Assembly (NCBI GenBank): GCA_016223085.1
Contig: JACRPS010000021.1
Location: 1 to 64,000 of the forward strand
Source: Chloroflexota bacterium
GTDB lineage: Bacteria > Chloroflexota > Anaerolineae > Aggregatilineales > Phototrophicaceae
Reading direction: 5' to 3'
Length of the DNA: 64,000 nucleotides
Below, one piece after another: positions 25,820-60,027 of this stretch; the first letter of the stretch is position 1, and each line of letters starts with the position of its first letter. A program made the position numbers and the translations under genes. Below the pieces are notes generated by a model. The model saw only the letters and a program-made list of their open reading frames with translations, was not told the DNA's origin and ran no database searches.

Positions 25820-25898
25820 GTAAAAAACGTATTTCAGCGAGTTGACAACCGCTGTAGAACGTCCTATAATGTTTTTACTAAATGAAACTCGTTTTTAC
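25820..25898. promoter_or_regulatory. Operator-like repeats around the aldolase promoter
   Basis: The site GTAAAAAACGTATTTCA (25820-25836) lies upstream of the -35. A near-inverted copy, TGAAACTCGTTTTTAC (25883-25898), lies downstream of the -10. GTTTTTACT is also directly repeated at 25871 and 25891, exactly 20 bp apart. The layout suits looping or cooperative binding by a dimeric repressor, possibly the IclR protein encoded at 30264. Confidence 0.55.
25842..25870 (+). promoter_or_regulatory. Consensus sigma-70-type promoter of the sugar-acid island
   Basis: TTGACA at 25842-25847 and TATAAT at 25865-25870 with a 17-base spacer, a full match to consensus. Transcription would start near 25877, about 42 bases before the aldolase ATG. 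Confidence 0.85.
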
Positions 25899-25918
25899 TC
25901 TGTGAAAATTACAACAAT

Positions 25919-26581
25919 ATGGTTTTAGCAAATCGCTTTAATCCTCTTGCTACCATCCGGGAAACCGGCGTTGTGGCAATTATCCGGGCCAGCCGTTCGG
26001 AGCATTTACTGGACGCTGCCGAGGCGCTGCGCGCCGGCGGGGTGCTGGCGGTTGAAGTCACCCTCACTACACCTGGCGCTCTCCAGACCATCGAGCAGGC
26101 CGTACGGAAATTCGGCAGTGAGGTGGTTATCGGCGCAGGCACGGTGCTGGACCCCGAAAGCGCGCGGGCAGCCATCCAGGCCGGCGCGCAGTTTATCGTC
26201 TGCCCGACCCTCAACCTGAACACCATCCAACTGTGCAAACGTTACAGCGTGCCGGTGCTGCCCGGCGCGTACACCCCAACGGAAGTCCTGACCGCCTGGG
26301 AAGCCGGTGCGGACATGGTAAAGCTGTTTCCGGCGGACATCGGCGGTCCGGCCTACCTCAAGGCGATTAAAGCGCCGCTGCCGCAGGTCAGCCTCACGCC
26401 GACCGGCGGCGTGGACGTGAACAACGCCGGAGACTTTATCCGCGCCGGGGCGGATGCGCTGGGCGTGGGCAGCGCGCTGGTTAACAACAGCCTGCTGGAA
26501 GCGCGCGATTTCGCCGCAATCACCGAACGGGCGCGCCGCTTCCGTGAAGCGGTGGCCGCCGCGCGCCAGGGAGCCGGATAA
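25919..26581 (+). CDS. eda: 2-keto-3-deoxy-6-phosphogluconate / 4-hydroxy-2-oxoglutarate aldolase
   Basis: A 220-residue class I aldolase. R23 (VVAIIRAS), the general acid/base E46 (LAVEVTLTTPGAL) and the Schiff-base K135 (DMVKLFPAD) are all present, with GAGTVL and TPTGGVDVNN phosphate-binding loops. It splits KDPG or KDPGal into pyruvate and glyceraldehyde 3-phosphate, or hydroxyoxoglutarate into pyruvate and glyoxylate. It is the first gene behind a consensus promoter. There is no Shine-Dalgarno-like sequence before the ATG (ACAACAAT), which is unusual in this window. The next gene follows after 2 bases. With the KDG-type kinase at 33881 it would complete catabolism of a 2-keto-3-deoxy sugar acid. 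Confidence 0.93.
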   Translation: MVLANRFNPLATIRETGVVAIIRASRSEHLLDAAEALRAGGVLAVEVTLTTPGALQTIEQAVRKFGSEVVIGAGTVLDPESARAAIQAGAQFIVCPTLNLNTIQLCKRYSVPVLPGAYTPTEVLTAWEAGADMVKLFPADIGGPAYLKAIKAPLPQVSLTPTGGVDVNNAGDFIRAGADALGVGSALVNNSLLEARDFAAITERARRFREAVAAARQGAG

Positions 26582-43588: not shown

Positions 43589-44760
43589 GCCCGCCTGCCG
43601 TTCAGCAGATCGGTCACAAATCGGGTGAAGCGTTCCAGCCCTTCCTCAAACTCCGGCGAACCTTTGGTCAGCGCACCGCGAATGAAGCCTTCACCCGCGC
43701 CGCCGCCAATCGTGCCCGGCTGGAACACCAGCCGCGCTTCCTCCCGCGCCCGCTGGCAGAACCCGGCACTGGTCAGCCCGGTGGGGCGAATATCAATGAA
43801 GATATAATACGCGCCCTGCGGTTCGCTGTAGGGCAGCGGAATCGCATCCAGCGTCTGCAGCCACAGCCGACGACGTCGGTCATATTCCTTCAGCACATCC
43901 TTGAACCAATCACGTGACTCCTTCAGTACAGCCAGCCCGCCGTACTGCGTGATGACGTTCGCGCAGATCATCATCGCGTGATGGAACGGCAGAATCGCTT
44001 CGATCAGCGGGGCGGGTGCGGCAATGTAACCCAGCCGCATTCCGGTCATGCCGAAACTCTTGGAGAACGAATTCACCGTGATGGTGCGGTCGCCCATGCC
44101 CGGCAGCGACGCCATGCTGACGTGCCGGTGCTCGCCAAACACGTAATACTCGTAAATCTCGTCGGAGATCACCAGCAGATCACGATCCTGCGCGACGCGG
44201 GCAATCTCGCAGAGCGTGGCTTCAGGCAGCACCGTGCCGGTCGGGTTGTTCGGCGTCAGCACAATAATGGCGCGTGTCTGCGGCGTAATGGCCGCTTCCA
44301 GATCAGCCGCATTCACCGTGAAGTTGGTGTTGCGCGTCGTGTTCACCGGCACGAGCGACGCGCCCAGCACGCGCGCATCCCGCGTGTATTCATCGTAATG
44401 GGGCGCGGGTGTCACCGCTTCATCGCCGGGATCGAGCAGCGCCATCAACACGGCCATCAGGGCTTCCTGCGCGCCAGAAGTCACCAGAATTTCATTATCC
44501 GGGTTGACCTGTATCCGGTTTTCGGTCAGCAGCTTGTCGGCAATCGCCGCGCGTAACTCCGGGATACCTGACCACGCCGTGTACTGCACGCGCTTTTCGC
44601 GCAGCGCCGTCTGCATCGCCGCGAACACGGTGTCCGGCGGCACAAAATCCGGCGTGCCACTGCCGAGATTAATCAGTCCCGGTATCGGCACGGACGTTTG
44701 CCGCCCCAGCGAACCGTGCAGGCTGTGCGCCCGTTTGGAAAGATACTGTGTGTAGTCCAT
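43585..44760 (-). CDS. PLP-dependent class I/II aminotransferase
   Basis: A 391-residue fold-type I enzyme with the Schiff-base K234 (NSFSKSFGMTGMRLGY), NNPTG at 171-175 and SDEIYEYY at 199-206. SGTPDF near the N-terminus and TSGAQEALMAV are also characteristic. It moves an amino group between an amino acid and a 2-oxo acid in the cytoplasm. It is related to, but clearly different from, the aminotransferase at 57848 across the divergent cluster. It belongs to the left operon, 27 bases behind the Gfo/Idh gene. Confidence 0.93.
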   Translation of the reverse strand: MDYTQYLSKRAHSLHGSLGRQTSVPIPGLINLGSGTPDFVPPDTVFAAMQTALREKRVQYTAWSGIPELRAAIADKLLTENRIQVNPDNEILVTSGAQEALMAVLMALLDPGDEAVTPAPHYDEYTRDARVLGASLVPVNTTRNTNFTVNAADLEAAITPQTRAIIVLTPNNPTGTVLPEATLCEIARVAQDRDLLVISDEIYEYYVFGEHRHVSMASLPGMGDRTITVNSFSKSFGMTGMRLGYIAAPAPLIEAILPFHHAMMICANVITQYGGLAVLKESRDWFKDVLKEYDRRRRLWLQTLDAIPLPYSEPQGAYYIFIDIRPTGLTSAGFCQRAREEARLVFQPGTIGGGAGEGFIRGALTKGSPEFEEGLERFTRFVTDLLNGRRA

Positions 44761-49263: not shown

Positions 49264-50841
49264 TTATTTCAACGTGGCGTTGTAGATGACAATCCACTCG
49301 TCCCGGCGCGCCTGCCAGTCGAGGCGGTTGCTCACGCCGTAGAAGTCCGGCTGGAAGTACAGCAGCAGCCAGGGCGGGTCGTTGTAGAACACTTCGAGCA
49401 TCTGGTTGATGATTTCGCGTTCCTGTTCGGGATCGCGGATGTCGGCCAGACTGTTCCACAGGGTGAACCACTCTTCGTTCTGCCAGTTGGTATAGTTGGT
49501 GCCGGCGTCGGGGCTGGACAGATCGGCCATGTCGTACAGGGCGTCCCACGTACCGCCGCCCGTACCGAGGAAGAACATCGGGCCGATTTCCTTCGGGCCG
49601 GTCAGCGTGCGATAGTCTGCCCAGTCACGGATGTCCACCGTCGTCTTAACGCCGACATCGGTTAGGTATTGCGCGATGGCCTGCACCACATTGGCATCGT
49701 TCAGGTAACGGCCACGCGGCCCCATCAGCACGGTTTCAAAACGCACGCCGTCGGCGTTGCGCGGGTAGCCAGCCGCGTCCAGCAGTTCTTCCGCCTTGGC
49801 CGGGTCAAATGGATATGGTTCCAGGTTCGGGTTATTATTGGGCGGGTTCACCATGCTGGAGGCACGTTCGCATTCCGTGCCCAGCAGCGTCTTGCAGATC
49901 GTCGGCACGTCCACCGCGTACTGGAGCGCCACGCGCACGTCCGTGTTCTGGAGTGCATCGTAGCCGGGCGCATCCTTGAAGTTCTCGCCGAACTGGAAAC
50001 CCACGTAAATGCGGCGCGTACCAGCCACTGCCTGTACTGTTGCCACACCGGAATTATTGACGGCTTCAATCTGATCGGGTGGCACGTTGGCGATCACGTC
50101 CACGTTGCCGGCGATCAGTTCCGCCACGCGGGTGGAGGCTTCCGGGATGACGCGCCAGATTTGCGTCTTGAAGTTGGTCGGACGCAGGGTGTAACCCTCG
50201 ACCGCTTCCAGCGTAATGTGGTCATCCGGCACCCACTCGACGAAGCGGTATGGGCCGGAGCCAATTGGTTTCTGTCCGGCTTCTTCCAGGCTCAGCGCCG
50301 AGTACGAATCCTTGCAGTGAATGTAAACCTCGGAGATTAGCGCAAGGCGCAGGTTCGGCGTCTGGTAGCGGTCGGTGAGGACGGTCACTTGCAAATCGCC
50401 ATCCACGCGCATTCCCTGGTAGCCAATGGCCGGCAGGGCAAAACCCGCCGTATTGCCGGTGAAGGCGTTGGCCGGGTCGGCGGCGCGCTCAAAGCTGTAA
50501 GCCACGTCCTCGGCAGTCAGGGCTTCACCGTCGTGGCAGGTCAGGCCTTCGTTCAGCGTGAACGTCCATTCCGTGCCATCTTCCGAAACCACGTACTCGC
50601 TGGCAAGATACGGGCGCAGCACGCCATCATCACCAATTTCAAACAGGGTGCCGAAAACGTGGAAGAAGATGTTGGCTTCCGCGCGTGAATTCACGCTGGC
50701 GGGGTCAAGCGCGCCTACATCCACAGTCTGGGCAATGATTAACGTATTTTCGTCCGGCGTCTGAGCAACAGTGATAAGCGGGAAAACGACCGCCAGCAAA
50801 CCGATGAGAAGTACCAGTAATACAAATCTGTAACGAAACAT
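49264..50841 (-). CDS. ABC transporter family 5 substrate-binding protein
   Basis: A 525-residue exported protein with a signal peptide (MFRYRFVLLVLLIGLLAVVFPLITVA-Q) and GGAGGGAGC before the ATG. SBP_bac_5 marks: TLIIAQTVDVGALDPASVNSR, FTLNEGLTCHDGEALTAEDVAYSFERA (about 103-129), VRVALQYAVDVPTICKTLLG and DAAGYPRNADGV. It binds oligopeptides or other oligomers and delivers them to the permeases at 49206 and 48260. It is the first transport gene of the left operon, separated from the Gfo/Idh gene upstream by 81 bases. Confidence 0.92.
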   Translation of the reverse strand: MFRYRFVLLVLLIGLLAVVFPLITVAQTPDENTLIIAQTVDVGALDPASVNSRAEANIFFHVFGTLFEIGDDGVLRPYLASEYVVSEDGTEWTFTLNEGLTCHDGEALTAEDVAYSFERAADPANAFTGNTAGFALPAIGYQGMRVDGDLQVTVLTDRYQTPNLRLALISEVYIHCKDSYSALSLEEAGQKPIGSGPYRFVEWVPDDHITLEAVEGYTLRPTNFKTQIWRVIPEASTRVAELIAGNVDVIANVPPDQIEAVNNSGVATVQAVAGTRRIYVGFQFGENFKDAPGYDALQNTDVRVALQYAVDVPTICKTLLGTECERASSMVNPPNNNPNLEPYPFDPAKAEELLDAAGYPRNADGVRFETVLMGPRGRYLNDANVVQAIAQYLTDVGVKTTVDIRDWADYRTLTGPKEIGPMFFLGTGGGTWDALYDMADLSSPDAGTNYTNWQNEEWFTLWNSLADIRDPEQEREIINQMLEVFYNDPPWLLLYFQPDFYGVSNRLDWQARRDEWIVIYNATLK

Positions 50842-51975: not shown

Positions 51976-52928
51976 GCTGTCATCTCCAGCTTGCACTGCC
52001 AGTCCACCACCTGCCGGATACCCGCTGCCAGTGGCGTCCAGCCAGCGAAGCCCGTTTCCGCGTGCAGGCGTTGGCTGGACAGATAGCCGCGCCGGGTCAG
52101 CGGAGGAATACCCGGTTCGTCACCCTCGCGTAGTTCGATGCGAACATCAGGCAAAACGGCCTGAATCGCGGCGGCGATGTCCAGGGGCGTTAACACCTGC
52201 CCGGATGCAACGTTATACAGCGCGTGGTTCAGACGGGGCGGCAGTAACAGGTGGTAAATGGCTTCGCCCACGTCCGGCGCGAATGTCCAATCCCGGCCTT
52301 CACTCGAACGGTAAACGGTGATGCCGCCGGTTTCGACCGCCTGCCGCACCAGCCGCGCCACCAGACTGACACGCGGGCGGCTGGGCCGCCAGAGTTCCCC
52401 CGTCCCGTAAATATTGCTCAGGCGCACCGCCACCACATCGCGCCCGTACTCCTCGCGCAGCGTCTCCACCAGCGATTCAAGCGTCTGTTTGGCGACAGCG
52501 TACAGGCCGCGCGGCGACGTTGGGGCGGTTTCGTCCACCGGGCCGGGCGTGGTTTCGCGGAACACCGCCGACGAACTGAGCAGCACCACTCGGCGCGCGC
52601 CGTTCCGCTGCGCCCATTCCAGCGCCGCCAGCGCCGGGTCGAGGTTGGCGCGCAGGTTCGCTTCGGGCGTTTGCGCCAGTTCGTCCGGCGCGGCAGTGAT
52701 GGCCGCCGCGTGAATCACGTAATCAACCGCCTGGTCGGGAAGCGTTCCGGCGTCAGCTTCCGTATAAACAAGCTGCTGCCCCGAGGCCGTCTGCCAGACC
52801 TGTACCAGCGTGGAATCAAACTGCTGGTCAACAGCAGTCACGGCACAGCCTCGATGCAATAGCGCCTCGACCAGATGGCGGCCAACAAAGCCGCCCGCCC
52901 CCGTGACCAGCACCCGCGCGGCGGTCAT
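51972..52928 (-). CDS. NAD-dependent epimerase/dehydratase family protein
   Basis: A 318-residue extended SDR started at the ATG at 52928 (MTAARVLVTGAGGFVGRHLVE). GxxGxxG loop GAGGFVG at about 10-16, catalytic Ser/Thr region VLLSSSAVF, Y-x3-K in GLYAVAKQTLESL (about 148-160) and the RLSNIYG segment. It is of the UDP-glucose-epimerase-like/sugar-lactone dehydrogenase type; the nucleotide-sugar tail is short, so uronate or free-sugar dehydrogenase activity is possible. ATGA overlap with the GntR gene and GTGA overlap with the Gfo/Idh gene. Confidence 0.88.
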   Translation of the reverse strand: MTAARVLVTGAGGFVGRHLVEALLHRGCAVTAVDQQFDSTLVQVWQTASGQQLVYTEADAGTLPDQAVDYVIHAAAITAAPDELAQTPEANLRANLDPALAALEWAQRNGARRVVLLSSSAVFRETTPGPVDETAPTSPRGLYAVAKQTLESLVETLREEYGRDVVAVRLSNIYGTGELWRPSRPRVSLVARLVRQAVETGGITVYRSSEGRDWTFAPDVGEAIYHLLLPPRLNHALYNVASGQVLTPLDIAAAIQAVLPDVRIELREGDEPGIPPLTRRGYLSSQRLHAETGFAGWTPLAAGIRQVVDWQCKLEMTA

Positions 52929-53617
52929 GACTCGTCGCCGTTCTGGGACTCGTCCCAATTTTCAGCCACCAGATCACCGGACGAGGCGACGTGTTCCTGA
53001 ATCAGCCGCACAGCCCGCGCCTCGTCGCCCTGTTCAATCGCTTCAATAATGGGCAGATGGTTGTAGGCAATCTGCCGGATGTCGGTGTTACGCTCGTTAC
53101 GCAGTGCCATCACCTGCCGCACGCGCATGGATACGGTGCTCCACGTCACGCCCAGCAGACTGTGGCCGCTTAGCTCAATCAGCGTGTCATGGAAGCGCCG
53201 GTCAATCCGGTTGACCGTTTTCAGGTCGCCGGCTTCGGCGGCGGCCAGCATTTCATCAAAGCACTGGCGGAGACGGGTTACATCTTCCGGGTTCGCACGC
53301 GCCGCCACGCGCTGCACGGCGAAGGTTTCCAGCACGCTGCGCAGGCTGTACAGTTCCTCGATATCCGTTTTGGTCAACTGCCGCACGACCGTACCCCGGT
53401 AGGGAACGGTTTCGACCAGCCCTTCGCGGCTCAGGATTTGCAGCGCCTCGCGCAGTGGGGCACGGCTGATGCCGAGGCGCGCGGCAAATTCCACCTCTAC
53501 CAACTGCTGGCCCGGTTTCAGTTCGCCGCTGACAATCGCGTCCCGCAGCACGTCAAGGACTCGCTCGCGCAGCGGCTTGTTTTCGATGTGTGGCAGGACT
53601 GCGCTGTTTTCCGTCAT
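52925..53617 (-). CDS. GntR-family (FCD subfamily) transcriptional regulator
   Basis: A 230-residue regulator started at the ATG at 53617 (MTENSAVLPHIENKPLRERV). The winged HTH at about 12-80 contains VLDVLRDAIVSGELKPGQQLVEVEFAARLGISRAPLREALQILSREGLVE, the FadR/FCD-type reading head. The C-terminal FCD domain (about 90-215) carries the metal-site His residues (RFHDTLIELSGH, YNHLPIIEAI and LIQEHV). FCD regulators bind carboxylic acids through the metal. It is the first gene of the left operon and faces the DUF4438 operon, with a palindromic operator covering both promoters. Confidence 0.94.
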   Translation of the reverse strand: MTENSAVLPHIENKPLRERVLDVLRDAIVSGELKPGQQLVEVEFAARLGISRAPLREALQILSREGLVETVPYRGTVVRQLTKTDIEELYSLRSVLETFAVQRVAARANPEDVTRLRQCFDEMLAAAEAGDLKTVNRIDRRFHDTLIELSGHSLLGVTWSTVSMRVRQVMALRNERNTDIRQIAYNHLPIIEAIEQGDEARAVRLIQEHVASSGDLVAENWDESQNGDES

Positions 53618-53621
53618 TTGC

Positions 53622-53650
53622 TTGACAACATCCCCTGGTGAACCTATAAT
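53622..53650 (+). promoter_or_regulatory. Consensus promoter of the right (DUF4438) operon
   Basis: TTGACA at 53622-53627, TATAAT at 53645-53650, 17-base spacer, a full consensus match. It begins five bases from the GntR start codon and reads away from it, with transcription starting inside the palindrome near 53657. Confidence 0.85.
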
Positions 53651-53654
53651 CTGC

Positions 53655-53688
53655 GTCGTCTGTAGACTGTCGACAGTTGACAGACGAC
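53655..53688. promoter_or_regulatory. 34-bp palindromic operator between the two operons
   Basis: Outer arms GTCGTCTGT / ACAGACGAC and inner ACTGTCGACAGT share one centre (between 53671 and 53672); only two base pairs mismatch. It contains GTAGAC, GTCGAC and GTTGAC at 7-bp spacing, like the GTnnAC cores bound by FadR/FCD regulators. It covers the predicted start sites of both promoters, so binding should block both. Confidence 0.8.
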
Positions 53689-53698
53689 ATTGGGTGTG

Positions 53699-53727
53699 AT
53701 TATAGGAACTCCCATCCAAAGAGTCAA
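53699..53727 (-). promoter_or_regulatory. Promoter of the left (GntR) operon
   Basis: On the minus strand TTGACT (53727-53722) and TATAAT (53704-53699) are 17 bases apart. It faces the promoter at 53622, so both transcripts cross the palindrome and overlap by about 35 bases. Confidence 0.82.
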
Positions 53728-53785: not shown

Positions 53786-54655
53786 ATGCCGCTGTCCACA
53801 AACGAATCGGTATTGGTTGAGATGGCCGTCACTGGCAATATCAGCCAGCCCAGTTTGCGCTACCCCGGTTATACACTGGATGCACACGGTGTTGGGCGCG
53901 TGTGGCCCGGTATGTCCGGCGTCGTCTATAACACCCGCGTTGGCGACCCGGCTTTCGGCTGGGCGGCTGACCACGTTGAACCGGGCGTTTCCATCGCTAA
54001 TCCCGACAGCGCCGCCGAATTCGCCCTGCACTACCTGACCTGTATTGGCAATCGCGCCGTCGTCACCAGCGGCCTGGCAAAAGGCGCGGAAGGCATCGTC
54101 ACCGGCGAACACGCCCGGCTGCTGGTGGACTTTCCGCCGGACGTAAACGACCTGCTGTGCGTGGGGGATTCGATTCAGATTATCGCGCACGGGCGCGGGT
54201 TGGCCTTCACCGATTTTCCCCAGATTGAACTGAAAAAGTGCAGCCCCAAACTCATCAAAAGCATCCCCCTTGAAGTCGTGGACGGCGGCAACAAACTGCG
54301 CGTGCCGGTCACGATGGAACTGCCGCCGCGCATCATGGGTTCGGGCGCGGAACTGAACTCCGAGTACGTGGATCAGGACTTAATGTCTGGCGACCGCGAG
54401 TTAATGGCTGAACTGGGCATTGACCGAATGCGGTTGGGCGATCTGGTGGTGATTCCCGACGCCGACCACCGCTGGGGGCGCGGCTACCGTAAGGGCGCGG
54501 TTACGATTGCGCTGTGCATTCACGGCGATTCGGTCATGACCGGGCACGGTCCCGGCATTCTCACCCTGATGAGCGCGCCGGAACCCTGCATTGAATGGGT
54601 GATTGACCCGCGCGCCAATATTGCCAATTATCTCAACATCCGCGAGGACTTATGA
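53786..54655 (+). CDS. DUF4438 domain protein 1
   Basis: A 289-residue cytoplasmic protein started at the ATG at 53786 (MPLSTNESVLVEMAVTGNIS) behind AAGGGGGA. Features shared with its neighbour: GVVYNTRVGDPAFGWAADHVEPGVSI (about 46-71), LTCIGNRAVVTSGLAKGAEGIVTGEH (about 85-110), LPPRIMGSGAEL and GRGYRKGAVTIALCIHGDSVMTGHGPGI (about 233-260). It fits DUF4438, whose members have solved folds but, to my knowledge, no assigned activity. Conserved D-H-V-E-P, G-x-G and HGD residues look like a binding or catalytic site. First gene of the right operon; ATGA overlap with its paralogue. Confidence 0.78.
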   Translation: MPLSTNESVLVEMAVTGNISQPSLRYPGYTLDAHGVGRVWPGMSGVVYNTRVGDPAFGWAADHVEPGVSIANPDSAAEFALHYLTCIGNRAVVTSGLAKGAEGIVTGEHARLLVDFPPDVNDLLCVGDSIQIIAHGRGLAFTDFPQIELKKCSPKLIKSIPLEVVDGGNKLRVPVTMELPPRIMGSGAELNSEYVDQDLMSGDRELMAELGIDRMRLGDLVVIPDADHRWGRGYRKGAVTIALCIHGDSVMTGHGPGILTLMSAPEPCIEWVIDPRANIANYLNIREDL

Positions 54656-55533
54656 GTGTCAGAACCAACGCCGACAGGCTGGTATGCGTTTCGGTCATGG
54701 GGCAAATCGCTTCGCCCGCTTTCCCCGGCCTGCCCGCCGTCCCTTACCAACTGGACGCGCAGGGGCGGCCTTTCCTGCTGCCCACTTACGGCGGCATCGT
54801 CTATAACGTCTCGGTGGGCGATTCGGCTTACGGCTGGATGGCCGACTGCATCCATCCTGGCGTCAGTATTTCACTCAAGGACGACAACGGCAACCGGGGG
54901 CTGAACCTGCTGGCCTGTGTCGGCAATACGGCGGTGGTGATGAGCGGCGACGCGAAGGGCGCGCGCGGTATTGTGACGGGTAAATCCGGGCGTTTCTCGG
55001 AACACGTCATCATTCACTTCGAGCGAGCCGCGCGCGAGAAAATGGCGATTGGCGACAAGATTGTTGTTCGTTCGCAGGGTGTCGGCCTGGAACTGGCTGA
55101 CCATCCCGGCGTGCAGTTCAAAAGCTGCTCGGTCGAGCTGCTGGAAGGGCTGGAAGTCACCAGCAGTCCAGACGGCAAACTGAACGTGCCGGTTGTCGGC
55201 CACGTGCCGCCGCACTTGCTGGGCGCGGGCGCGGGGCTGACCAGCGAAGGCGGCTCAGTACACATCCAGTCTGCCGACAGGGAGGCGCTGGCGTTGGCCG
55301 GGCTGGACAAACTGCGGTTGGGCGACGTGGTGGCGCTGACGGATTACGACAGCAGTTGGAATCACGGTTATCTGCGCGGCGCAGTCGGCATTGGTGTCGT
55401 CGGGCAGGGCGACAGCCCGCGCAACGGTTACGGCCCCGGCATCACGCTGCTGATGACCAGCATGACCGGCGGCATTAACCCGGTGGTCACGCCAGGCGTG
55501 AATCTGAAAGATGTTTTTTCTCTGCAAAATTAG
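54652..55533 (+). CDS. DUF4438 domain protein 2
   Basis: A 293-residue paralogue of the preceding protein, starting MSVRTNADRLVCVSVMGQIA. It aligns along its length: GIVYNVSVGDSAYGWMADCIHPGVSI (about 46-71), LLACVGNTAVVMSGDAKGARGIVTGK, PHLLGAGAGLTSEGG and HGYLRGAVGIGVVGQGDSPRNGYGPGI. The D-H-V-E-P of copy 1 is D-C-I-H-P here and HGD becomes QGD, so the two copies have different polar residues in the shared pocket. The start codon overlaps the previous stop, which implies coupled translation and perhaps a heteromeric complex. Confidence 0.78.
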   Translation: MSVRTNADRLVCVSVMGQIASPAFPGLPAVPYQLDAQGRPFLLPTYGGIVYNVSVGDSAYGWMADCIHPGVSISLKDDNGNRGLNLLACVGNTAVVMSGDAKGARGIVTGKSGRFSEHVIIHFERAAREKMAIGDKIVVRSQGVGLELADHPGVQFKSCSVELLEGLEVTSSPDGKLNVPVVGHVPPHLLGAGAGLTSEGGSVHIQSADREALALAGLDKLRLGDVVALTDYDSSWNHGYLRGAVGIGVVGQGDSPRNGYGPGITLLMTSMTGGINPVVTPGVNLKDVFSLQN

Positions 55534-55542
55534 GAGTTTCCC

Positions 55543-56010
55543 ATGCAGAACGGCACGTACATTAAACACATGGCCTTCGCCGTGCGCGATGCCAACGCGG
55601 CGCTGAAGACGTATCAGGATTTGCTCGGAGTCGGGCAGGACGCCGAGGTGAAGGATTACCCCAAGTCACGCAACCGCGTGGCGCTGTTTTACGTCGGTGA
55701 CGTGGAATACCAGCTTTGCCAGTCATTAGATGAAGGCGGGCGCTTCGACGCCTGGATCAAACAGCGCGGCTACGAAGGGCTGCACCACATCTGCTACGCC
55801 GTGCCGGACATTAACGCGGCGCTGGCGGAGGCGCAGGCCAGGGGCGCAACGCTCAGGGAATGCAGCGCGTGTAAGGTCAAGGGCAGCCACCCACACCCCG
55901 AAGGCTGGGTGGCGTTCCTCGATCAGGAAGCGGGCGGCATCGAACTGGAACTGATGCAGGTCTACACGCCGGAACAACTGGAAGCATACAAAGCGGTTAA
56001 GGGAATCTAG
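55543..56010 (+). CDS. VOC-family (glyoxalase/epimerase fold) protein
   Basis: A 155-residue protein with two beta-alpha-beta3 modules. Probable metal ligands are H9 (YIKHMAFAV), E56 (DVEYQL), H81 or H82 (GLHHICYAV) and E134 or E136 (GIELELM), the pattern of methylmalonyl-CoA epimerase and related isomerases. AGGAG site before the ATG. In this operon it may isomerise or epimerise a small acid, or open a ring; sequence does not decide. The next gene starts 3 bases after the stop. Confidence 0.88.
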   Translation: MQNGTYIKHMAFAVRDANAALKTYQDLLGVGQDAEVKDYPKSRNRVALFYVGDVEYQLCQSLDEGGRFDAWIKQRGYEGLHHICYAVPDINAALAEAQARGATLRECSACKVKGSHPHPEGWVAFLDQEAGGIELELMQVYTPEQLEAYKAVKGI

Positions 56011-56013
56011 GGA

Positions 56014-57141
56014 ATGGGTATCACGCTGGTGCGCGTCCCGGTAGACGCGCTCGAACAGTTCACCCTCGCCTGCTTCCTGGCGATGGGCGTGCCGCAGGAC
56101 GAGGCGGAGATGTGCACGCGCGGCCTGATGCACAGCGAGCTGCGTTGCCTGCCCGGACAGGGACAGGGCGTGCGCCGTCTTCCTGTCTACTACGAACGAA
56201 TCAGCAAGGGCTACATTCAGCCCGGCGCGCCCTACGAAATCGTCAAGGAGTCGCCGTCGCTGGCGCTGGTGGACGCGCACAACGGCCTCGGCTCGCCGGC
56301 GGCCCAACGCGCCATGCGCCTTGCGGTGAAGAAGGCCAAAGAGACGGGCATGGGCACGGTGCTGGTTAAAAACAGTACCCACTTTGGCAGCGCCGCCGTG
56401 CCCGCCCTGATCGCGGTGGAAAACGACTGCATTGGCGTCGCCTATACCAACGCCGGCCCGGAGATGGCCCCTTGGGGTGGCGCGTCCGGCGTGACCGGCA
56501 CCAACCCCTGGGGCATCGCCGCGCCTACCGGCGTCGGTTTTCCGCTGGTGCTGGACATCGCGCTGACGACTGCGGGCAAGGGCATGATGCAGTGGTACGC
56601 CCGGCAGGGCAGGAAGATGCCGCTGGATTGGGCGCTCACGCCGGAGGGCGAAGAAACCGACGACCCGAACGCGGCCATGAAGGGCTTCCTGCTGCCGATT
56701 GGACAGCACAAGGGTTACGGTCTGGCGGTGATGACGGATGTTCTCACCGGAATCCTCGGCGGTGCGGGCTTTGGCCTGATGCCGTACAGCAACCCGTTCA
56801 AGCAGGATGTGTCGTACACCATGATCGCCTATGACATTGCGTGGTTCCGCCCGCTGGCCGATTTCAAGCGCGATGTGGACCAGTTCATCCACGACCTGAA
56901 GGCGGCGAAGAAGCGCCCCGGCGTGGCGGAGATTTTCGTCCCCGGCGAGCTGGACGCCCGCCGCGAAGCCGCCTACCGCGCGGACGGCGCACAGCTCGAC
57001 GCCGACATCTTCGACCAACTGGCGGAACTGGCTACCAAACTCAACATCCCGTTCCCGTTTGAACGCGAGGTCGTGCACGAAATCCCGATCGCAGCCGATG
57101 TAGCGCCGACCGATCTGGTAGCGCCGGGGGAGGCCGTATGA
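56014..57141 (+). CDS. Ldh2-family malate/L-lactate/ureidoglycolate-type dehydrogenase
   Basis: A 375-residue NAD(P)-dependent 2-hydroxy acid or cyclic-imine oxidoreductase of the Ldh_2 fold. Substrate-site features: HSELRCLPGQGQGVRRLPVYYERI (about 40-63) and the catalytic H123 in VKNSTHFGSAA. GGASGVTGTNPWGIAAPT (about 154-171) and LPIGQHKGYGLAVMTDVLTGILGG (about 228-251) are family signatures. Relatives include ureidoglycolate dehydrogenase (AllD), 2,3-diketogulonate reductase and piperideine-2-carboxylate reductase. The presence of an allantoinase-like gene nearby fits an AllD-like role but does not prove it. ATGA overlap with the next gene. Confidence 0.9.
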   Translation: MGITLVRVPVDALEQFTLACFLAMGVPQDEAEMCTRGLMHSELRCLPGQGQGVRRLPVYYERISKGYIQPGAPYEIVKESPSLALVDAHNGLGSPAAQRAMRLAVKKAKETGMGTVLVKNSTHFGSAAVPALIAVENDCIGVAYTNAGPEMAPWGGASGVTGTNPWGIAAPTGVGFPLVLDIALTTAGKGMMQWYARQGRKMPLDWALTPEGEETDDPNAAMKGFLLPIGQHKGYGLAVMTDVLTGILGGAGFGLMPYSNPFKQDVSYTMIAYDIAWFRPLADFKRDVDQFIHDLKAAKKRPGVAEIFVPGELDARREAAYRADGAQLDADIFDQLAELATKLNIPFPFEREVVHEIPIAADVAPTDLVAPGEAV

Positions 57142-57851
57142 CCGCGCAAACCCTATCTCGCCCACTGGCGGCGCGGGTGGCTGGCCTGCCGGAAGCCGCC
57201 GACAGCCTGCCGAATCCAGCCGTTCCCGCATCTGTCGCTCAGGCCGCCGCCGAGGCGTTGGCCGCCGGACACACGCACTACACCGACCGCCCCGGCGTGT
57301 TGAATCTGCGCCGGCGTGTGGTCGAAACGCTTGGCAAACATGATGGCATTGAACTGAGCGCCGATGAAGTGACGATCACCTGCGGCGCAACCGAAGCGCG
57401 CTTTGTCGCCCTCAAGCAGTTGGTCAAAGCCGGGACGGTGATTGCCTGCGCGGGTGATGGTCAGGCGATTGCGGCAGCGGCGCGTTTAATCGGCGCAGAA
57501 ATCACCAGCGACCCTGCGCCCGATGCGGCGGTCCGCCTCGTCTATCTGACGACCGCCGATGACCAGGCACGGGTGCAATCGCTGCTGGAACGAGCCGCCG
57601 CGCAGCAGGCGTGGATTGTGTGGGATACGTCGCCCGGTATGGGCAGTGGCTTCCACCCGGCGCAGAATCCGGCGCTGGCGGCGCAGGTCATCACCATTGG
57701 CAGCTTTTCGGCGGCGCTGCCGGGCTGGCGCGTCGGCTGGATGGCCGGGTCGCAGATGGCAAACAAACTGCGCGCCTACAAACAGAGCATGACGATTTGC
57801 ACCACCAGCGTGTCGCAGTGGGCGGCGCTGGGGCTGGAGGCGGATGGATGA
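57138..57851 (+). CDS. Truncated aminotransferase-like protein lacking the catalytic lysine
   Basis: A 237-residue protein resembling the middle part of fold-type I aminotransferases: HYTDRPGVLNLRRRVVETL (about 47-65), TCGATEARFVAL, WIVWDTSP (where SDE-x-Y should be) and GSFSAALPGWRVGWMAGS (188-205). In the last motif the PLP-binding Lys of S-F-S-K is A192, and the N-P-T-G segment is missing (VYLTTADDQ instead). The C-terminal domain is absent. It cannot act as an ordinary aminotransferase. Reading frame, coupling by ATGA overlaps on both sides and codon use look intact, so it may be a partner subunit rather than debris. Confidence 0.8.
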   Translation: MTAQTLSRPLAARVAGLPEAADSLPNPAVPASVAQAAAEALAAGHTHYTDRPGVLNLRRRVVETLGKHDGIELSADEVTITCGATEARFVALKQLVKAGTVIACAGDGQAIAAAARLIGAEITSDPAPDAAVRLVYLTTADDQARVQSLLERAAAQQAWIVWDTSPGMGSGFHPAQNPALAAQVITIGSFSAALPGWRVGWMAGSQMANKLRAYKQSMTICTTSVSQWAALGLEADG

Positions 57852-59032
57852 TTGCCAACCCGAACATTCCCGAAGACGTGCGCGCGGTGGCCTCGAACGG
57901 CACACAGCTTCGCTACAAGCTGATGGAACTGACCGCGCAGTACCCGGACGCCATCGCGCTCGGTCGCGGCGACCCAGACCTAGCCACGCCCGCACATATC
58001 ATCGCTGCCGCGAATGAGGCCGTCCGCCAGCAGCGTAGCGGCCTGTCGCCCGTCGCTGGCCTACCGGAACTGCGGCAGGCGGTTGCCGCCAAGCTGCGCC
58101 GCGAAAACGGGCTATCGGCTGAGGCCGAAAACGTCATCATCACCACCGGGGGGCAGGAAGGGCTGTTCCTCATCATGCAAACGCTGCTCGACCCCGGCGA
58201 CGAAGTGCTGGTGCCCGACCCGCGTTATACCTCTTACGATGAAGCCATCGAGAGCGCCGGCGGGCGCATGGTCTTAATCCCGACCGACCACGACGACGCC
58301 TTCAACCTGCGACCGGAAGCGGTCGAAGCGGCGATCACGCCGCGTACCAAAGCCGTGCTGATTATCACGCCGAGCAACCCGACCGGCGGCATCGTCACCG
58401 AAGACCGCCTGCGCCAGATTGCCGACATTGTTATCAAATACAACCTGATTGTCATCTCCGACGAGATTTACGAAAAGTTCCTGTACGATAGCTGGCGGCA
58501 CTTCAGCATCGGCTCGCTGCCCGGCATGGAAGAGCGCACCATCACACTGAACGGCTTCTCCAAGACCTATGCCATGACCGGCTTCCGCGTCGGCTTCGTC
58601 GCCGCGCCGGTCAACTTCATTCAGGCGATGGTGAAGGTCAAAGCCGCGACCACCGGCCCGGCGGCGACCATCAGCCAGTGGGCGGGATTGGCCGCGCTGA
58701 CCGGCCCGGTTGAGCCGCTGCGCGAGTTCCAGCGCATCTATACCGAGCGCCGTCAGATCATGATGGACGGCCTGCGCACCATGCACCTCGATTTCAGCGA
58801 CCCGCGCGGCGCGTTTTTTCTGTGGACGAACAGTTCTTCCACCGGCATCCACGCCACCGAACTGTCGTATCTGCTGCTGAAAGAGGGGCGCGTCCTGATT
58901 TTCCCCGGCACTAGTTTTGGCGAAAACTGGGGCGGTTACCTGCGAATCAGCATTTTGCAGTCCACTGACCTGCTGCGCGAAGCCCTTGACCGGATGCAAC
59001 CGATTATCGCCCGCTACCGGGCCAACCACTGA
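57848..59032 (+). CDS. PLP-dependent class I/II aminotransferase
   Basis: A 394-residue enzyme started at the ATG at 57848, which overlaps the previous stop (ATGA); the open frame upstream of it overlaps the previous gene out of frame. All key residues are present: SNPTG near 176-180 (N177), D205 and Y208 in ISDEIYE, Schiff-base K239 in LNGFSKTYAMTGFRVGF and C-terminal GGYLRIS Arg for the carboxylate. It belongs to the aspartate aminotransferase group I-gamma-like family. It directly follows the lysine-less homologue, so hetero-oligomer formation is conceivable. Confidence 0.93.
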   Translation: MIANPNIPEDVRAVASNGTQLRYKLMELTAQYPDAIALGRGDPDLATPAHIIAAANEAVRQQRSGLSPVAGLPELRQAVAAKLRRENGLSAEAENVIITTGGQEGLFLIMQTLLDPGDEVLVPDPRYTSYDEAIESAGGRMVLIPTDHDDAFNLRPEAVEAAITPRTKAVLIITPSNPTGGIVTEDRLRQIADIVIKYNLIVISDEIYEKFLYDSWRHFSIGSLPGMEERTITLNGFSKTYAMTGFRVGFVAAPVNFIQAMVKVKAATTGPAATISQWAGLAALTGPVEPLREFQRIYTERRQIMMDGLRTMHLDFSDPRGAFFLWTNSSSTGIHATELSYLLLKEGRVLIFPGTSFGENWGGYLRISILQSTDLLREALDRMQPIIARYRANH

Positions 59033-59040
59033 GGAGAGGA

Positions 59041-60027
59041 ATGATGCTGACAGTCGGCACAGCCAGCGCCGCCCCCGGCGAACGGGCGCGTGGGGTTATC
59101 CCGGTTACGAACTTGCCCGGCGGGCGTCCGCTGGAAATCCCGGTGATCGTCATCAACGGCAGCCAGCCCGGCCCGTGTGTCTGGGTGGACGCGGTCATTC
59201 ACGGCGACGAACCGGAAGGCACGCTGGCCTGCCATCTGGTGAACGCAGAACTAGACCCGGCGGCCATGCGCGGCAGCGTCGTGCTGGTGCCGGTGCTGAA
59301 CGTCCCGGCGTATGAAGCGGCGCAGCGCGGTAATCCGCTGGATACCTTCAGCTACGATCTGAACCGCATTTACCCTGGCAAAGCCGACGGTTACCTGACC
59401 GAACGGCTGGCCTTTACCCACAGCCAATGGCTGCGCGACGTGGCAACCTACGAGATTTCGATTCACTCCGGCGGCGCGCATTCCTACCTGTCGGAAACGA
59501 TTTTCGCCACCACCGACGAGAAGGCGATTGAACTGGCGCAGGCAATGGGCAAGGACTGGGGCTTGATCCTCAAGAGCTTCCTGCCCAAAGGCAGCCCGCC
59601 CGCCGTGATGTACGAAGCCGGCAAGCAGGGCATCACCGTCGAACTCGGCGGGCGTTCGGCCACGTCCCCGGCGGATTTTGCGCGCTGCGGGCGCGTGCTG
59701 GCCGATGGCATATTGAACGTGCTGCGCCACTACGAGGTGATTGACGGCGCGCCCACCTACGCTCCGAGGTGGCTGACCGGCGTGCAGCACGCGCTGTTAG
59801 CGCCCGCCAGCGGCCTGTTCCTGGCCGAGCCGTCGCTGCAATTCCAGCAGCCGATGCACAAAGGCGACCGCATCGCCCGAATCGTGGATGTATACGGCGA
59901 TCTGCTGGCGGAAATCTGCGCGCCGGTGGATGGTTTGATCTTTGGCCTGCGCGCCCTGCCGAACGTGCAGACCGGCGACTGGTGCTGTTTCTACGCCGAA
60001 ATTCAGGGCGAACTGGCACAGGTATGA
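59041..60027 (+). CDS. Succinylglutamate desuccinylase/aspartoacylase-family deacylase
   Basis: A 328-residue M14-like zinc hydrolase. Zinc ligands H54 and E57 in VIHGDEPEG, H142 in ISIHSGG, substrate Arg in DLNRIYPG (106-113) and catalytic E201 in VELGG are all in place. Relatives remove acyl groups from N-acyl amino acids (AstE, AspA, DoeB). The C-terminal beta domain (about 245-325) ends in a biotinyl-like fold, GLFLAEPSLQFQQPMHKGDRI. It probably releases an amine or amino acid from an N-acylated intermediate. ATGA overlap with the M20 gene. Confidence 0.9.
   Translation: MMLTVGTASAAPGERARGVIPVTNLPGGRPLEIPVIVINGSQPGPCVWVDAVIHGDEPEGTLACHLVNAELDPAAMRGSVVLVPVLNVPAYEAAQRGNPLDTFSYDLNRIYPGKADGYLTERLAFTHSQWLRDVATYEISIHSGGAHSYLSETIFATTDEKAIELAQAMGKDWGLILKSFLPKGSPPAVMYEAGKQGITVELGGRSATSPADFARCGRVLADGILNVLRHYEVIDGAPTYAPRWLTGVQHALLAPASGLFLAEPSLQFQQPMHKGDRIARIVDVYGDLLAEICAPVDGLIFGLRALPNVQTGDWCCFYAEIQGELAQV

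Follow-up and report, generated by a model that had tools for sequence, protein, structure and literature searches.

A candidate GntR operator with phased cores between two facing promoters at a recurrent GntR/DUF4438 locus of Chloroflexota

In Escherichia coli, the argE/argCBH and bioA/bioBFCD clusters are transcribed from facing divergent promoters with a shared operator, and their repressors, ArgR and BirA, are not encoded by either of the two arms. The locus analyzed here, which lies in a window of 64,000 nucleotides (the whole stretch of DNA under study), resembles both systems in that the promoters of divergent genes point toward one another and both arms share a single operator region, and it differs from them in having a GntR/FCD gene as one arm and an operator with cores phased at 7-bp steps. 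Face-to-face promoters have also been described in plasmids: orf02p and orf02prev of RA3 are both repressed by KorC and KorB (PMC9455977), and at trbAp/trfAp of RP4 the stronger promoter inhibits the other by opposing transcription (PMC7314908); overlapping divergent promoters are described in pLS20. As presented in those reports, RA3 and RP4 rely on plasmid global regulators, whereas the metabolic operon of the window appears to be under a GntR repressor encoded locally. Shared control of divergent promoters that face each other is a known, if uncommon, layout, which related bacteria have kept here. A search of open-licence papers yielded no conserved version that combines a GntR repressor with an operator phased at 7 bp, and no recurrence of such a version within one class.

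A survey of GntR divergons describes single mid-spacer sites, from which control of both arms was inferred, and reports that many operators are accompanied by weaker boxes, located 7-12 nt away from the centre of the site, either on one side or on both (PMC4494728). The main text of that survey does not contain the word promoter, and therefore the position of the operator relative to facing promoters is not treated in that text; facing promoters flanking the operator would explain how one mid-spacer site controls both arms. As in the FadR/FCD divergons of the survey, the window operator would lie between the arms and have extra cores near its centre. In addition, PrpR of Pseudomonas aeruginosa, an FCD repressor, was predicted by phylogenetic footprinting to recognize the motif ATTGTCGACAAT, and gel shift assays showed that it binds the prpR upstream region (PMC9765439). 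NanR of E. coli is described to bind as three dimers side by side on direct GGTATA repeats, with a cooperativity that operates through a 32-residue N-terminal extension (PMC8012715).

In the window, a gap of 168 bp separates a GntR gene from a divergent DUF4438 operon, and the features of the locus are as follows:

52925..53617, minus strand: GntR-family repressor with an FCD domain, 230 aa, ATG at 53617
53622..53650, plus strand: DUF4438 operon promoter, TTGACA-17-TATAAT, 12/12 consensus, predicted start ~53657
53655..53688: candidate operator region, a 34-bp inverted repeat composed of five GTCGAC-like cores spaced at 7-bp steps
53657..53692: predicted transcript overlap of 36 nt, both starts being predictions
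53666..53677: 12-bp core at the centre, ACTGTCGACAGT, which departs from the conserved ATTGTCGACAAT at two positions
53727-53699, minus strand: GntR gene promoter, TTGACT-17-TATAAT, 11/12 consensus, predicted start ~53692
53786..54655, plus strand: DUF4438 protein, gene 1 of the rightward operon, ATG at 53786
54652..55533, plus strand: another DUF4438 protein, with 40% identity to the preceding one over the match
55543-56010, plus strand: glyoxalase-like protein of the operon
56014-57141, plus strand: Ldh_2-family dehydrogenase of the operon, after the glyoxalase-like gene

The GntR protein contains the Pfam domains PF00392 (3.9e-17) and PF07729 (2e-29), which place it in the FCD (FadR-type) subfamily. 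Its best solved relative was 7xp0 (E 4.7e-19), which we take to be PrpR/PmiR (PA0797) of P. aeruginosa. Like PrpR, the window regulator is an FCD-type GntR repressor, and the motif ATTGTCGACAAT predicted for PrpR is the core conserved here. PrpR is reported to control a 2-methylcitrate operon, whereas the window GntR gene adjoins DUF4438, glyoxalase-like and Ldh_2 genes, and 2-methylcitrate cycle genes were absent among the 8 + 5 locus proteins scanned, all of which belong to other families. A DUF4438 match at 1e-30 was present in 7 of 298 class genomes, the own genome counted, and in all seven a second DUF4438 copy adjoins the first; the word DUF4438 was not found in the literature search. 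Directly beyond the dehydrogenase gene, a short aminotransferase-like frame of 237 aa (57138-57851), whose match is limited to the beginning of Aminotran_1_2, leads straight into a full-length aminotransferase (57848-59032).

A promoter scan confirmed that the plus-strand and minus-strand consensus promoters are present as predicted and point at each other. The 17-spacer consensus with up to two mismatches occurs at five places in the 64-kb window (two exact, one with one mismatch and two with two mismatches), a number that was reached by 1 of 100 window shuffles (mean 1.15, sd 1.14), and the facing pair consists of one of the two exact places and the single-mismatch place. When the starts were set 7 nt past each -10, they fell at 53657 and 53692, and the transcript overlap, expected to be about 35 bases, came to 36 nt. 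From these predicted starts, the 12-bp core would occupy +10 to +21 of one transcript and +16 to +27 of the other, that of GntR. A typical open complex reaches +20, and two open complexes extending that far from the predicted starts would share 4 bp.

The original prediction proposed a search for the same arrangement in related genomes. Relatives of DUF4438 were collected from genome contigs, where 132 were confirmed and the best 80 of these were kept, and from the class genomes, which supplied L005. The resulting set comprises 23 loci with a GntR match no more than 600 bp from DUF4438 and facing it, namely the window, L005 and 21 of those 80. Left out were L010, L046, L048 and L051 (GntR match beyond that distance), L020 (no GntR before the contig ends), L076 (GntR match oppositely oriented) and L008 (a partial and distant match to GntR, in a locus on the opposite strand), and the remaining loci of the best 80 had no GntR match. 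A facing pair with at least 9 of 12 consensus positions per promoter was found in 16 of the 23 loci, at least 10 positions were matched in 15 and at least 11 in 14, whereas 200 dinucleotide shuffles per locus led us to expect 0.32, 0.01 and 0.00, respectively; the 23 loci are related by descent and do not count as independent events. The -10 to -10 gap in the 16 loci measures 36-48 bp. The facing pair is missing in the other seven (L005, L021, L035, L044, L047, L056 and L063), and the layout is therefore not obligatory.

Fifteen of the facing-pair loci, that is, all except L064, were aligned (L005 and L021 are also out). The mean pairwise identity was 0.98 and 0.94 for the -35 hexamers and 0.93 and 0.92 for the -10 hexamers, compared with 0.37 and 0.36 for spacers of equal length; locating the hexamers by best match biases the comparison toward them, and the shuffles of the 23 loci control for this bias. 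These values bear on the possibility that one of the promoter matches is unused and that the real start lies elsewhere. A consensus match does not prove use, and the minus-strand -10 is degenerate in L005 and L021 (best 8.5 of 12). Nevertheless, both promoters keep their hexamers while the spacers drift, and pairs of such quality are unexpected by chance in the shuffles of the 23 loci, so that we regard an unused promoter as very unlikely. By its sequence and conservation, and with starts that are predicted, the locus is a member of the class of facing divergent promoters, with a geometry conserved well enough to test.

The region between the two -10 hexamers contains the 34-bp palindrome with two mismatches that had been expected, at 53655-53688, with 17-nt arms that are 88% complementary and mispaired at two positions, and its centre is the GTCGAC at 53669-53674. 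The 7-bp steps of the cores proved right, but their number is five (GTCGTC, GTAGAC, GTCGAC, GTTGAC and GACGAC) and not three. Related GntR/DUF4438 loci likewise have a candidate operator between the two predicted starts: the core, with up to two mismatches, lies between the facing promoters in 15 of 15 aligned loci. The window core ACTGTCGACAGT differs from the PrpR motif ATTGTCGACAAT at two positions, a departure that counts against the control by GntR proposed below, and relatives match that motif exactly. Set against the FadR-type consensus as quoted in the survey of GntR divergons (PMC4494728), the TGTCGACA within the core presents the palindromic GT and AC boxes.

The operator pattern is specific to the locus at its full inner length. 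With up to three mismatches, the 24-bp inner operator pattern gave three matches in the 6.03-Mb genome, all of them overlapping at the locus, against one match for the reversed control, and shuffles of the window led to an expectation of 0.00. The 12-bp core alone, with up to two mismatches, was not above chance in the window (4 matches vs 1.72 expected), and the near-matches at 44533, 55048 and 58418 were set aside as no more than chance. The motif ATTGTCGACAAT with up to one mismatch occurs at 11 distinct places in the own genome (reversed control, 1), and the window core, at two mismatches, is not among them.

The role of the 34-bp palindrome as the working unit was not supported by the 15 loci, where pairing outside the 12-bp core amounts to 13-67% per position (positions 7-20), with a mean of 0.44 over positions 7-17. 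This pairing exceeds that of random letters because the cores are themselves palindromic, and it is far from that of a conserved 34-bp palindrome. The phased cores, in turn, were assessed in two groups of loci: group A (17 loci), and group B, with 31 of the 58 loci L035-L092, chosen for a core with up to one mismatch and enough flank, at least 6 of which also have a GntR match. At offsets -14, -7, 0, +7 and +14, the mean matches to the six letters of GTCGAC were 2.71, 4.00, 5.88, 4.29 and 3.88 in group A and 1.74, 2.35, 5.97, 1.97 and 1.68 in group B; both groups were centred on the best core, and the centre value is therefore high by construction. In the 15 aligned loci, the cores at -7, +7 and +14 scored 3.87, 4.33 and 4.13, above all 2000 flank shuffles (maxima 2.93, 3.20 and 2.67), and the core at -14 was not above the same shuffles (2.47 vs 2.60). 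Several loci carry cores mainly on one side. The weak flank pairing and the phased cores together suggest that the palindrome of the window is best read as a nearly symmetric phased array, and the conserved operator unit would be a 12-bp core near ATTGTCGACAAT plus further GTCGAC-like cores at 7-bp steps.

The same data weigh on a different reading of the inverted repeat, namely that it acts in the RNA rather than as an operator in the DNA, forming a 5' hairpin on both transcripts that affects stability or translation. The two window leaders do fold better than most of their shuffled versions (z -1.84, equalled by 8 of 200 shuffles, and z -2.34, equalled by 4 of 200). However, a hairpin is hard to reconcile with the poorly conserved pairing outside the 12-bp core, with the loci whose cores lie mainly on one side and with the match of the core to a GntR motif, and we consider this reading highly improbable. 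A terminator scan lists no site in the repeat, which likewise speaks against the RNA hairpin and led us to discard a reading of the repeat as a terminator.

The array of closely repeated cores at a fixed step is, as far as the letters go, a feature that the window shares with the NanR operator; the window GntR protein, in which 16 residues precede the Pfam GntR match, differs from NanR in having no long N-terminal extension. More than one mode of GntR binding, as had been proposed from the spacing of the cores, is possible by analogy with GntR precedents.

Among the aligned GntR proteins, the recognition helix reads SRAP(L/I/V)REA in the window, in the 14 other aligned loci and in L064, L133 and L134, and also in L005, L021, L035 and L063, all of which are without a facing pair; the distant L139, which has a facing pair, reads SRGTLREA. 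Six loci (L044, L046, L047, L048, L051 and L056) read SQATLRDA and keep the core upstream of DUF4438, and the facing pair was found in none of the three tested (L044, L047 and L056). In these relatives with SQATLRDA for SRAPLREA, the regulator may have changed its site or its partner. This helix pattern agrees with a reading of the operator by the neighbouring GntR protein, without proving it. The core within 350 bp upstream of DUF4438, with up to two mismatches from ATTGTCGACAAT, was present in 44 of the 64 loci listed, including Devosia species, and it also precedes many DUF4438 genes that lack a close GntR match alongside. This last observation counts against control by the neighbouring GntR protein, and the core may in those genomes serve a regulator encoded elsewhere.

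Taken together, we think it probable that the gap is an autoregulated divergent control region of the facing type, with a GntR operator between the starts that would provide joint repression, followed by polymerase competition. Two near-consensus sigma-70 promoters would fire toward each other from predicted starts ~36 bp apart, with the operator between them and just downstream of each. When no inducer is present, GntR dimers would sit on the core, and the neighbouring 7-bp phased cores could offer extra or alternative contacts. GntR bound at ~+10 to +27 of both transcripts would stop the polymerase at initiation or escape at both promoters, silencing the enzymes and the repressor together, and since GntR would block both promoters, its own synthesis would be limited by the same act. 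A ligand on the FCD domain, probably a small carboxylate or amino-acid-like metabolite, would cause GntR to leave, and the two polymerases would then be in competition, since a few bp of overlap are expected between their downstream edges. GntR might act as a roadblock or might instead cover the start regions, two modes that look alike in the sequence; that most DNA-binding proteins are said to make poor roadblocks (PMC10310618) counts against the mechanism. Such a region would be a compact natural switch, with near-consensus promoters, for studying polymerase collision and repressors bound just past two starts.

The position of the core within the gap leaves room for control of one arm only, in which the operator would control the DUF4438 promoter and the facing GntR promoter would be constitutive, its opposing transcription merely dampening the enzyme promoter. 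In the 15 loci, the core centre averages 18 bp from the DUF4438 -10 vs 25 bp from the GntR -10; L044, L047 and L056 have the core near DUF4438 and the GntR promoter elsewhere, and interference between facing promoters has been reported for trfAp/trbAp of RP4 (PMC7314908). In the window, however, the core also spans +16 to +27 of the GntR transcript, and a repressor sitting there should impede the GntR promoter as well; we regard control of a single arm as unlikely.

Facing promoters were also sought beyond DUF4438. The one-sided pattern TATAAT-N20..50-ATTATA-N16..18-TGTCAA was present in 78 of the 396 class genomes (reversed control, none among those listed), and a back-to-back pattern with equal fixed bases and gap widths in 188 of 396 (control matches in 2), which, for similarly degenerate one-sided patterns, bears out the view that back-to-back promoters are the usual arrangement. 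Among the places listed for the one-sided facing pattern in the 396 genomes, 11 carry an exact two-sided facing pair; 10 of them flank a regulator gene and 8 a GntR gene, a flanking gene being defined as the largest open frame up to 600 bp away on each side. One locus, L135 = L019, is counted in both the 23 loci and these 11 pairs. The regulator is GntR/FCD at six pairs (opposite DHDPS, glyoxalase-like, DUF4438, an unmatched protein, SBP_bac_5 and Aminotran_3), GntR/UTRA at two (RpiB-like opposite in both), LexA at one (a histidine kinase opposite) and a PadR-like/DUF4388 protein at one (a 4Fe-4S protein opposite). The pair without a regulator (L133:16711-16805, SBP_bac_5 and AstE-like) has a 7-bp phased operator and lies ~9 kb from a GntR facing pair of the same genome, as if one regulator served both. 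Members of the SBP_bac_5 and AstE-like families also occur in the window, at 49264-50841 and 59041-60027, respectively.

Back-to-back two-sided pairs number at least 13, and among those listed 7 flank a regulator (DtxR-like, TetR, three FUR, IclR and MarR) and none a GntR gene. Thus, GntR genes adjoin 8 of 11 facing vs 0 of 13 listed back-to-back pairs (p = 0.0002), and any regulator 10 of 11 vs 7 of 13 listed (p = 0.08). When the GntR contrast was collapsed by family, with the back-to-back pairs listed, it became 4 of 6 vs 0 of 6 (p = 0.06), and the link of facing promoters with GntR is suggestive, not established. It is possible, though doubtful, that GntR repressors of the class favour facing promoters in general, so that two or three dimers would pack between the starts on the 7-bp array and clamp the initial transcribed turns of each gene; the ratio of repressor to enzyme would then be set by competition, because two open complexes could not coexist, possibly giving a two-state switch.

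In a sample of 400 genomes of the phylum, the one-sided facing pattern was present in 38 (control, 1), and among the places listed no exact two-sided facing pair was seen outside the class. Five genomes from outside the class (G640, G676, G692, G707 and G712) repeat the one-sided facing pattern and have CGGAGC...GCTCCG palindromes between the two -10 hexamers. In the window itself, two imperfect TTTTTACTnnnTGAAA-like repeats come directly after a perfect plus-strand TTGACA-17-TATAAT (25842-25910), and this arrangement, perhaps another operator past a start site, precedes the open frame 25919-26581, presumably a KDPG-aldolase-like gene.
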